From Brevundimonas sp. (GTDB taxonomy: Bacteria; Pseudomonadota; Alphaproteobacteria; Caulobacterales; Caulobacteraceae), in NCBI GenBank assembly GCA_016742215.1, contig JACVCC010000003.1, positions 186,001 to 250,000 of the forward strand: a stretch of 64,000 nt of DNA. Reading direction: 5' to 3'. The position numbers and the translations under genes are program-made. Each line of letters opens with the position of its first letter. Position 1 is the first letter of the stretch. Below, one piece after another: positions 55,624-57,585 of the stretch. The notes under the pieces were generated by a model. It made no database searches. It saw only the letters and a program-made list of their open reading frames with translations, and was not told where the DNA came from.

Positions 55624-55893
55624 ATGGCCGGCAAGCTCAGCTTCTCGCTGGTGTCGCCTGAACGCGAGGTCTTCTCGGGCCTCGTGGATCAGGTGGACGC
55701 GCCGGGCGTCGAAGGCGACTTCGGCGTTCTGCCCAACCATGCCCCGTTCATGACCGCCCTGCGCGAAGGCGTGGTCACCGTGATCGACGGCTCCAGCCGT
55801 CGCCTGTTCGAGGTGCACGGCGGCTTCGCCGACGTCACCCCGGCCGGCCTCACCATCCTGGCCGAGAAGGCCTCGGAACTGACCGCCGCCTGA
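55624..55893 (+). CDS. atpC: ATP synthase F1 subunit epsilon, short form
   Basis: An 89-residue subunit that makes up the beta-sandwich of epsilon (SFSLVSPEREVFSGLVDQVD, GDFGVLPNHAPFMTALREG) and ends at TILAEKASEL. The C-terminal two-helix domain of Escherichia coli epsilon (about residues 90-138), which inhibits ATP hydrolysis, is absent, as in other short alphaproteobacterial forms. It starts three bases after atpD and is followed by a strong terminator. Confidence 0.95.
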   Translation: MAGKLSFSLVSPEREVFSGLVDQVDAPGVEGDFGVLPNHAPFMTALREGVVTVIDGSSRRLFEVHGGFADVTPAGLTILAEKASELTAA

Positions 55894-55911: not shown

Positions 55912-55948
55912 AAAAAGCCCCGGTCAGCTCCGCTGGCCGGGGCTTTTT
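55912..55948 (+). terminator. Intrinsic terminator of the atp operon
   Basis: A twelve-base perfect stem AAAAAGCCCCGG (55912-55923) with CCGGGGCTTTTT (55937-55948), loop of 13 bases, ending in TTTTTCTT. It lies 19 bases after the atpC stop. Confidence 0.93.
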
Positions 55949-55960
55949 CTTGGGCCGCGA

Positions 55961-56079
55961 AGAGAGGGATTAGGTTCGGGGGATTAGGGATTAGGGAGCT
56001 GGCCGGCGAACGCTCGCCAATCTCGATCCTAATCACCCCTGGTCCCTGATCCCTAATCCCTATTCCCTAGTCCCTCTCT
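55961..56079. repeat. TAGGG-rich imperfect inverted repeat, element A
   Basis: The left arm (55961-56000) starts AGAGAGGGATTAGG and goes on with GGATTAGGGATTAGGGAG; the right arm (56041-56079) is close to its reverse complement and ends TCCCTAGTCCCTCTCT. Between them are about 40 bases of ordinary GC-rich sequence. Within each arm the unit GGGATTA (or TAATCCC) repeats. It fills most of the gap between the atp terminator and the sugE leader. A related element is at 57586-57685. Confidence 0.75.
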
Positions 56080-56118
56080 TGACCCCCACGCCGGGCGCCC
56101 TAGATAGCCCGTGCAAGA

Positions 56119-56186
56119 CGAGGCCACGTCCTCGCCCCGCATCGCGGGCCAAGTCCGGGACGGCCCGGCCCTTTGCAAGGAGGGCC
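56119..56186 (+). promoter_or_regulatory. Structured sugE leader, candidate guanidine-II-like riboswitch
   Basis: Three hairpins in a row: CGAGG-CCACGT-CCTCG (56119-56134), CCCGC-ATC-GCGGG (56136-56148) and CCGGG-ACGG-CCCGG (56155-56168). A fourth, GGCCCT (56167-56172) with AGGGCC (56181-56186), would trap the Shine-Dalgarno AGGAGGG (56178-56184) and shares two bases with the third, so the two compete. Guanidine-II riboswitches use hairpins capped by ACGR loops closed by G-C pairs, and control sugE/gdx genes; the third hairpin fits that pattern. The first hairpin has ACGT, not ACGR, so the match is partial. Confidence 0.45.
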
Positions 56187-56193
56187 GTATTCC

Positions 56194-56523
56194 ATGGCCT
56201 GGGTTTCTCTCATCATCGCCGGCCTGTTCGAGATCGTCTGGGCCTATTTCATGAAGCAGTCGCACGGCTTCACCCGCCTGTGGCCCAGCGTGGCCACCAT
56301 CGGCTTCATGGCCATCAGCTTCGCCCTGCTGTCCTGGTCGATGAAGAGCCTGCCGATGGGCACGGCCTATGTCATGTGGACGGGTATCGGCGCCGTCGGG
56401 GCCTTCATCGTCGGCGTGGTCCTGCTGGGCGAGCAGCTCAGCGTCCTGCGCATCCTTGCGGCGGTTCTGGTGGTTTCGGGACTCATCCTGTTCCGCCTGG
56501 CGCCGGGTGGAGAGGCCCACTAG
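56194..56523 (+). CDS. sugE: Guanidinium exporter SugE/Gdx (small multidrug resistance family)
   Basis: A 109-residue four-helix inner-membrane antiporter. The first helix carries the substrate- and proton-binding Glu in AGLFEIVWAYFMK, and SMKSLPMGTAYVMWTGIGAV is diagnostic of the SugE/Gdx branch as opposed to EmrE. These proteins exchange guanidinium for protons as dual-topology dimers. A strong AGGAGGG precedes ATG 56194, within a structured leader that may sense guanidine. No urea or guanidine carboxylase genes are nearby. Confidence 0.92.
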   Translation: MAWVSLIIAGLFEIVWAYFMKQSHGFTRLWPSVATIGFMAISFALLSWSMKSLPMGTAYVMWTGIGAVGAFIVGVVLLGEQLSVLRILAAVLVVSGLILFRLAPGGEAH

Positions 56524-56635: not shown

Positions 56636-57115
56636 ATGCTGACGATCATCGCCATGATGGCCGCCCTGACTGTGGCGGCGACATCGCCCCAGACCTCGCC
56701 GGACCGGGCGGCCTTCGAGAGCCTGAAGGCCATGCGCGGCGATTGGCGCGAGGTCGGCCGACCACGCCCCTTCACGCTGAACTACCGCACGATGTCGAGT
56801 GACAAGGTCGTGGTCGAAACCTGGACCGGATCGAACGGGCAGCAGAGCATCACGGTCTTCCTGATGGAGGGTGAAAGGCTGATCGCGACCCGCTACTCAG
56901 CTTTGGGTAGCCATCCGACCATGTCGCTGACATCCGCCACAGACGGCGAGCTGGCGTTCACATTCAGGTCAGCGGTCAATCCGCCGACCGGGGACGGCCC
57001 CTACATCCGCGCCATGTCAATACGACGCGACGGCAACCGCATGACGCGCACCGACACCTTCCACGCCTATGGCGCCGACGAGACCAGTCGCTGGCAGCTG
57101 GCCCGCGTTCGCTAG
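56636..57115 (+). CDS. Secreted protein of unknown function
   Basis: A 159-residue protein with a short signal peptide (MLTIIAMMAALTVAATS). The mature part has a helical start (DRAAFESLKAMRGDWREV) and then beta strands such as VVETWTGSNGQQSITVFLME and RMTRTDTFHAY, suggesting a small barrel reminiscent of lipocalin-like folds; this is a guess from pattern. GGGAG is eight bases before the ATG, and a perfect hairpin GCGGTC-ATCG-GACCGC lies at 56602-56617. The stop TAG overlaps the stop of convergent rppH in CTAG. Confidence 0.68.
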   Translation: MLTIIAMMAALTVAATSPQTSPDRAAFESLKAMRGDWREVGRPRPFTLNYRTMSSDKVVVETWTGSNGQQSITVFLMEGERLIATRYSALGSHPTMSLTSATDGELAFTFRSAVNPPTGDGPYIRAMSIRRDGNRMTRTDTFHAYGADETSRWQLARVR

Positions 57116-57585
57116 ATCAGCAGGGCCGCGAAGGTCGAGACGACCTGCTCATAGGCCTCGCGCTTGAATGGCACGATCAGGTCCGGCGCCTCGTCCAACC
57201 GTCCCCAGCGCCAGGCGTCGAACTCGATCTCCTCGTGCTGTTCGAGGTCGATCTCGGCTTCCTCGCCGGTAAAGCGGAAGGCGAACCAGCGCTGTTTCTG
57301 CCCCTTCCAGCCGCGCGCCTGTTTTGACCCGCCGTAATCGGCCGGGAAGTCATAGGCGACCCACTGCTGGATCTCGCCGATCAGTTCGGCCGAGGTGACG
57401 CCGGTTTCCTCGGCCAGCTCGCGTCGGGCGGCGGCTTCATAGTCCTCGCCTTCATCGACCCCGCCCTGCGGGAACTGCCAGTTATACGGTCCCGGCGTCC
57501 CCGCGCGCCGCCCGTACCAGACGCGTCCGTCCGGATGGAACAGCACGACGCCGACGTTGGGGCGGTAGTTCGAGAGGTCTCTCAT
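57112..57585 (-). CDS. rppH: RNA pyrophosphohydrolase RppH
   Basis: A 157-residue Nudix enzyme that removes pyrophosphate from mRNA 5' ends and so starts decay. The Nudix box spans residues 41-63 (GGVDEGEDYEAAARRELAEE then TGV); NYRPNVGVVLFHPDG and WQFPQGG are family features. Length is typical. The ATG is only one base from repeat element B and has no Shine-Dalgarno in front of it, so translation may depend on coupling or the start may lie elsewhere. It ends overlapping the convergent secreted protein gene. Confidence 0.93.
   Translation of the reverse strand: MRDLSNYRPNVGVVLFHPDGRVWYGRRAGTPGPYNWQFPQGGVDEGEDYEAAARRELAEETGVTSAELIGEIQQWVAYDFPADYGGSKQARGWKGQKQRWFAFRFTGEEAEIDLEQHEEIEFDAWRWGRLDEAPDLIVPFKREAYEQVVSTFAALLI

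Follow-up and report, generated by a model that had tools for sequence, protein, structure and literature searches.

The guanidine-II riboswitch is a minimal cooperative device in which two like hairpins bind two ligands. In its crystal structures, as set out in the available text of PMC5486947, the C and G of the ACGR loops pair across the two loops, the A packs against the closing pair of the partner hairpin, and the purine is flipped out. Guanidinium lies on the closing G, where the G of its own loop and the phosphates of the tight turn hold it; according to the same text (PMC5486947), the direct ligand contacts all come from one loop, with the partner hairpin orienting that loop. The available parts of a 2022 study from Breaker's group consider singlets that lack further structural support improbable in nature and leave room for mixed pairs (PMC9481103), and an account of vertebrate RNAs, likewise available in part, suggests that off-consensus hairpins might join a consensus hairpin in a single pocket (PMC12335538). 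GGAM-5, as presented in the text and Table 1 of PMC7736828, is a motif with 328 examples in Alpha- and Betaproteobacteria; most lie before sugE, the remaining genes have no precise function, and first tests gave no guanidine binding. In a partial search of the guanidine-II riboswitch literature, which did not extend to the founding papers PMC5340285 and PMC5558903 and so does not establish absence, we found no description of the variant reported below.

The window analysed here is a 64,000-nt stretch of a Brevundimonas sp. genome in which atpC (55624–55893), followed by a terminator hairpin with arms at 55912–55928 and 55932–55948, precedes sugE/gdx (56194–56523, forward strand, start codon at 56194), with rppH (57112–57585) farther on. 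The sugE/gdx product is a 109-aa guanidinium exporter of the Gdx type in the SMR family, which matched PF00893 in Pfam (E 3.9e-29) and scored 123.6 bits against the NCBIfam SugE model, slightly below its cut-off of 126. All of the Gdx residues checked, E13, W16, S42, Y59 and W62, were found in it, and it has the marks of the Gdx subtype (W16 replacing Gly/Ala, together with E13, S42 and W62); the roles of E13, S42, W62 and W16 were taken from the available text of PMC7695847. Two other elements flank the gene. For an ORF of 159 aa 3′ of sugE (56636–57115), neither Pfam nor NCBIfam gave a family at E 0.001, and a long imperfect inverted repeat between atpC and sugE (55960–56080; 43-nt arms, 79%) is made of GGGATTAGG-like units and resembles a REP-type element, related pieces being found elsewhere in the genome (eight matches, of which two are the repeat at this site and its reverse arm).

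The sugE leader contains, on the forward strand, a hairpin P1 (56119–56134; CGAGG-CCACGU-CCUCG) whose enlarged loop (56124–56129) is not ACGR, a linker hairpin (56136–56148; CCCGC-AUC-GCGGG), and a hairpin P2 (56155–56168; CCGGG-ACGG-CCCGG) with a canonical ACGR loop (56160–56163), the presumed guanidinium site. P1 and P2 are 20 nt apart, the Shine-Dalgarno sequence GGAGG (56179–56183), read from the sequence, starts 10 nt past P2, and gdx comes next. Because GGCCCTTT (56167–56174) is complementary to GGAGGGCC (56179–56186), a stem GGCCCUUU/GGAGGGCC with loop GCAA (56167–56186) could sequester the Shine-Dalgarno sequence and serve as the expression platform; it shares the GG at 56167–56168 with P2, so the two structures are predicted to be mutually exclusive. 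The ACGG hairpin, the partner loop (CCACGT in DNA), a third hairpin between them and the stem sharing GG with the ACGG hairpin had all been claimed in the original prediction, and every letter and position of it proved correct when the sequence was read again. A likely promoter read from the sequence (56079–56106, forward strand; TTGACC at 56079–56084, a 16-nt spacer and TAGATA at 56101–56106) would probably put the transcript start a few bases 5′ of P1. TTGAC/TAGAT-like boxes were seen by eye at the equivalent place in four variant relatives (L011–L013 and L015), and a strict consensus promoter scan called none at 56079–56106.

This arrangement resembles guanidine-II (mini-ykkC, RF01068) in several respects. 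Two GC-rich hairpins stand in series near the ribosome binding site of an exporter gene, the ACGR loop of P2 is closed by a G–C pair, P2 overlaps the stem that would sequester the Shine-Dalgarno sequence, both loops hold the ACG trimer that the kissing contact requires according to the available text of PMC5486947, and the 20-nt linker falls inside the 7–40 nt range given in the portion of PMC7544219 available to us. In close relatives, moreover, the canonical form (GAGG-ACGA-CCTC..CCGGG-ACGA-CCCGG) occupies the equivalent place before the homologous sugE. By contrast, the P1 loop is CCACGU rather than ACGR, with two nucleotides inserted and U in place of the purine, a covarying hairpin fills the linker, and the match to the family model is below the gathering score. 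The Rfam Guanidine-II model aligned both hairpins at 56116–56168 with 21.9 bits, against a gathering cut-off of 32; nothing in the whole window reached an Rfam gathering score. The leader was nonetheless the top RF01068 match of its own genome assembly (about 70% complete), the runner-up scoring 16.4 bits.

A lone ACGR hairpin is not rare by chance, as five with at least five Watson–Crick pairs were present on the two strands of the window and 50 shuffles gave a mean of 2.4 (range 0–7). Nor was the whole leader unusually stable (z −1.48), 11 of 200 shuffles folding equally well. The significance of the leader thus comes from its position, its partner hairpin and its conservation. A covariance model of the variant (R1, 48 sequences) gave the window leader 62 bits and the rest of the window at most 9.9, the former value being partly by construction because the window sequence is one of the 48 rows. 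No locus of the odd-P1 type exceeded the Rfam cut-off among 20 tested, or among two more (L192 and L196), compared with 13 of 18 canonical loci.

To place the odd loop, we collected sugE-like genes by protein search from 61 relatives, from 385 genomes belonging to the class and from 398 belonging to the order, taking from the 61 relatives the 30 places that became loci and leaving out weaker SMR matches, and read the DNA before 140 such genes without regard to RNA. In 25 of the 140 leaders there was no ACGR hairpin near the start, and 24 of the corresponding proteins were less than 56% identical to the SugE of the window. The remaining 115 alphaproteobacterial leaders were selected for having an ACGR P2; in these, P1 was canonical ACGR in 62 (ACGA in 54, ACGG in 8), CCACGU in 44 (39 called by script and five, L243, L247, L188, L192 and L260, by eye), another enlarged loop in six (CCACGA twice, and CCACGC, CAACGA, AACGA and AACGG once each) and uncalled in three. 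The caller was restricted to hairpins holding ACG, so that the presence of ACG in all odd loops is partly by construction. Among 90 distinct variant leaders, 84 were called CCACGU; most of these 90 were retrieved with a pattern in which the loop and the inner part of P2 are fixed, and the invariance of the loop is therefore to be judged on the sugE-anchored set. One of the 90, L111, was entered as CCACGC and left out of the linker and folding counts, a chance upstream match having been picked as its P1.

These homologues bear out the suggestion that the window carries a diverged or one-handed form with a single canonical loop, and the ACGG hairpin, whose loss in close relatives would have told against it, was not lost. 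Judged by this distribution, the odd P1 marks a subtype that is conserved across Alphaproteobacteria and is not a decayed copy. Unlike the leaders with two ACGR hairpins (62, a set nearly identical to the canonical 62), which had 22 different P2 14-mers, all 44 CCACGU sugE-anchored leaders had the P2 14-mer CCGGGACGGCCCGG. We had considered this invariance as proof that P1 and P2 coevolved and set it aside, since five canonical leaders from other genomes (L309–L312 and L314) also carry CCGGGACGGCCCGG; descent may thus explain the invariant P2.

Pairing was supported by covariation in three parts of the leader. In the 48-row alignment, three of the four P1 pairs were changed on both sides, in six cells in total, a result matched by none of 500 shuffles, and in one Brevundimonas variant, L354, every change in the P1 stem is compensated (CGGGA-CCACGU-UCCCG), a closing A–U replacing G–C. 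The Shine-Dalgarno stem, which is paired in the predicted ligand-free fold of the window, scored 15.5 for pairing in 84 distinct leaders, compared with 11.45 (sd 0.38) when arms were swapped between sequences and 12.86 for the top of 300 shuffles. Its fourth pair was CG in 28 leaders, AT in 16, GC in 15, GT in 9, TA in 4 and TG in 4. Six or more pairs were found in 65% of the 84 leaders versus 29% in shuffles; in the other 35%, the stem starting from GG had fewer than six. Linkers from 87 distinct variants also paired better than half-swapped ones (13.72 versus 11.94, sd 0.22), supporting the third hairpin, whereas 58 canonical linkers did no better than swapped ones (8.19 versus 7.90, sd 0.23). 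Covariation had been proposed as a check on the ACGG stem as well as on the Shine-Dalgarno stem: it was found in the latter and in P1, and P2, being invariant in the 48-row variant alignment, has no covariation support there and is uninformative either way.

We then determined how the two forms are distributed. This sugE is present in 83 of 131 genomes of the genus, with the variant beside the gene in 47 (R1 at least 37 bits) and the canonical form in 36 (an RF01068 match, above cut-off in 21); the letters were read for all 47 variants, giving 45 CCACGU and two CCACGC. None of the 131 genomes had both a variant match of at least 37 bits and an RF01068 match over the cut-off. Such a distribution is what interchangeable devices would give. 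A pattern scan in which each species was represented by one genome, with the loop and inner P2 fixed by construction, found at least 119 stretches, and among the 80 loci listed from it, 51 had a sugE-like gene within 600 nt 3′ of the motif. Class was named for 49 of these 51, all Alphaproteobacteria, in the orders Caulobacterales, Sphingomonadales, Acetobacterales, Hyphomicrobiales, Rhodospirillales, Parvularculales and Rhodobacterales. The other 29 listed loci, three of them in Alphaproteobacteria, were scattered across many phyla like chance matches. When R1 was run against 398 genomes of the phylum, the 18 matches comprised 12 CCACGU (five already read as L009, L016, L018, L232 and L233), five canonical, three of which were outside the class, and one CCACGA with a damaged P2; none of the 18 showed the CCACGU form outside Alphaproteobacteria.

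In a SugE protein tree, 95 variants fell within one subfamily (SH-aLRT 98) together with 47 canonical members. E13, W16 and W62 were present in 95 of 95 variant-linked SugE proteins and S42 in 94 of 95, and the Gdx residues were the same in the variant-linked and canonical-linked groups. At least six switches between variant and canonical were required on this tree, in which few forks were resolved (106 columns). A single origin of the variant was accordingly rejected as a conclusion; with such poor resolution, gain, loss and transfer are not separable.

Several variant switches were seen outside the usual setting. Two of the three non-sugE alphaproteobacterial loci, L108 and L143, resemble genuine switches in front of other genes. 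Three Brevundimonas genomes lack this sugE (G072, G087 and G091; L319, L320 and L321, L108 being, by length, the L320 contig), and in them the variant precedes a CBU_0592 family gene, the product of which is a small membrane protein (NF047864; two proteins scanned). In L321 the sugE ATGGCC is seemingly fused to that gene. In seven further genomes with the gene, the switch was absent from the preceding 110 bases, and in one of these, L325, the gene is apparently directly 3′ of atpC. The arrangement may reflect either a new target gene or a relic of sugE loss. In a Mesorhizobium MAG (L143:4232–4277), a variant switch is followed by a 59-aa ORF and a gene of the ornithine cyclodeaminase family, the 600 nt downstream containing no sugE-like gene, and Sphingopyxis sp. 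LC81 has a second complete variant switch 3′ of sugE (L081:6169–6234), running into a nuoA-like gene (PF00507). A CCACGA-type leader with P2 loop GCGA precedes a sugE that looks damaged by eye (L315; G191:C2:236773–236823) and is an apparent decaying copy. A plasmid search found a related leader and an SMR gene of 71% identity on two Sphingobium plasmids.

On balance, we consider it probable that the leader is an asymmetric guanidine-II variant, an ON switch through which guanidinium would promote translation of its exporter Gdx. With ligand absent, the 3′ end of P2 (GG, 56167–56168) would begin the stem sequestering the Shine-Dalgarno sequence. When guanidinium is present, P2 would bind one ligand in its ACGG loop and close fully through docking on P1, and the closed P2 would leave the Shine-Dalgarno stem without its base, allowing translation to start. 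P1 would be the docking partner, since CCACGU retains the ACG whose C and G could form C–G and G–C pairs with the CG of P2. The pocket of P1 would be changed, since an additional CC follows the closing G ahead of the A, and U replaces the conserved purine after ACG. Because CC splits the closing G from the A at the tight turn that holds guanidinium, one site is expected rather than two cooperative ones, and lower cooperativity would follow from one ligand in P2 with P1 holding the structure. Variant and canonical leaders share the gene position, the Gdx subfamily and its key residues, which favours guanidinium as the ligand for both. On the other side stand the score below the Rfam gathering cut-off, the six cells in which P1 covaries, the invariance of P2, the 35% of leaders whose GG stem is shorter than six pairs and the low plain-folding probabilities of P1 and P2 given below. 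The available text from Breaker's group also reports that a single consensus hairpin works poorly with a mutated partner (PMC9481103), a point against a device with one site unless CCACGU makes up for it. Because P1 lacks the ACGR loop and the leader falls below the Rfam cut-off, we regard it, from these features, as a conserved asymmetric variant that would work like guanidine-II and not as a plain member. The original prediction of a guanidine-II-type leader before gdx is thus supported by the homologues.

A changed specificity, in which the CCACGU pocket accepts another guanidino compound or a cation, or the two hairpins bind two different ligands, one each, appears unlikely. The strong retention of CCACGU, in 44 of the 50 non-canonical sugE-anchored P1 loops and 45 of the 47 variants of the genus, is consistent with it, and mixed pairs with another aptamer are left open in the available text of PMC9481103. 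Guanidine-IV provides a precedent in Gd4v, a variant with a distinct ligand that, like the form described here, is a guanidine riboswitch look-alike conserved across many genomes; according to the available text of PMC9788692, however, the genes of Gd4v are unlike guanidine genes, whereas the present variant is mostly associated with gdx. GGAM-5 might be the same RNA, given that both lie before sugE and that the variant also precedes the CBU_0592 gene in three genomes of the genus, although GGAM-5 includes Betaproteobacteria and the CCACGU form was confined to Alphaproteobacteria in the phylum sample (12 of 18 matches, 398 genomes). If the two are the same, the non-binding of guanidine in the first tests, as given in the available text of PMC7736828, would favour a changed specificity and count against our preferred explanation. 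Against the change stand the identical gene position, Gdx subfamily and key residues of the canonical form, and the fact that each of the 83 sugE genomes among 131 of the genus carries either the variant or the canonical form next to the gene.

It is rather unlikely that the leader represents a widespread alphaproteobacterial hybrid riboswitch, in which unlike hairpins form one kissing aptamer, with P2 binding guanidinium and CCACGU either binding a second ligand or filling its own pocket. In the first version, the CCACGU hairpin would bind a different ligand, making the leader a natural two-input gate built from two hairpins of 14–16 nt. In the second, one inserted C may take the place of guanidinium at the Hoogsteen edge of the loop G and so act as an internal mimic of the ligand. 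Bases other than C also occur at the insertion, the loops being CAACGA and AACGA in two members.

We judge it improbable that both loops bind guanidinium and the leader is an ordinary cooperative guanidine-II, in which the hexaloop would form a normal pocket through ACG and a flipped-out last base. The ACG trimer and the G–C closing pair are retained in nearly all variants, the last loop base is sometimes A or C, and base 10 is described in the available text of PMC5486947 as extrahelical and making no ligand contact, all of which speaks for this reading. The insertion, however, sits between G6 and A7, that is, at the floor of the pocket and at the turn, and in L188, L260, L308 and L354 the closing pair is A–U, which removes the stacking G.

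P1 could instead mainly base-pair, CGUCC with GGACG of P2 and AGGCCA with UGGCCU of the start region, as a clamp in the OFF state. The window leader reaches its lowest predicted energy in this clamped fold (−42.8 kcal/mol), 7.7 kcal/mol below the fold with P1 and P2 both formed (−35.1 kcal/mol), and in 53% of 89 leaders the pairing of P1 with the start region had a probability above 0.5. Plain folding, which ignores loop–loop contacts and ligand, gave a probability above 0.5 to P1 in 17% of 89 variant leaders, to the inner P2 pairs in 35% and to the GG–Shine-Dalgarno stem in 64%. The P1–P2 part of the clamp, however, exceeded 0.5 in just 31% of 88 variants, codon 2 was GCC in 57 of 89 variants versus 37 of 64 canonical leaders, indicating little or no enrichment, and the duplex was broken in L258, L273 and L277, with P2 not compensating. 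A start-codon clamp or P1–P2 duplex was therefore rejected as the cause of the loop, its P1–P2 part being predicted in fewer than one in three homologues and codon use giving it no clear support, and we hold this reading to be quite improbable. A decayed, non-functional guanidine-II remnant, which would agree with the score under the Rfam cut-off, is very unlikely as far as sequence can show, the loop being conserved in the seven named orders despite freely varying linkers and with compensatory changes in the stem.

The asymmetric guanidine-II variant provides a large natural set of devices with one canonical hairpin, together with a canonical counterpart that precedes the same gene in other members of the genus, which makes the role of the second site and of cooperativity directly testable. 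If our interpretation is correct, gdx control goes unannotated at the Rfam cut-off in many Sphingomonadales, Caulobacterales, Acetobacterales and other bacteria, and the variant may explain the orphan motif GGAM-5.
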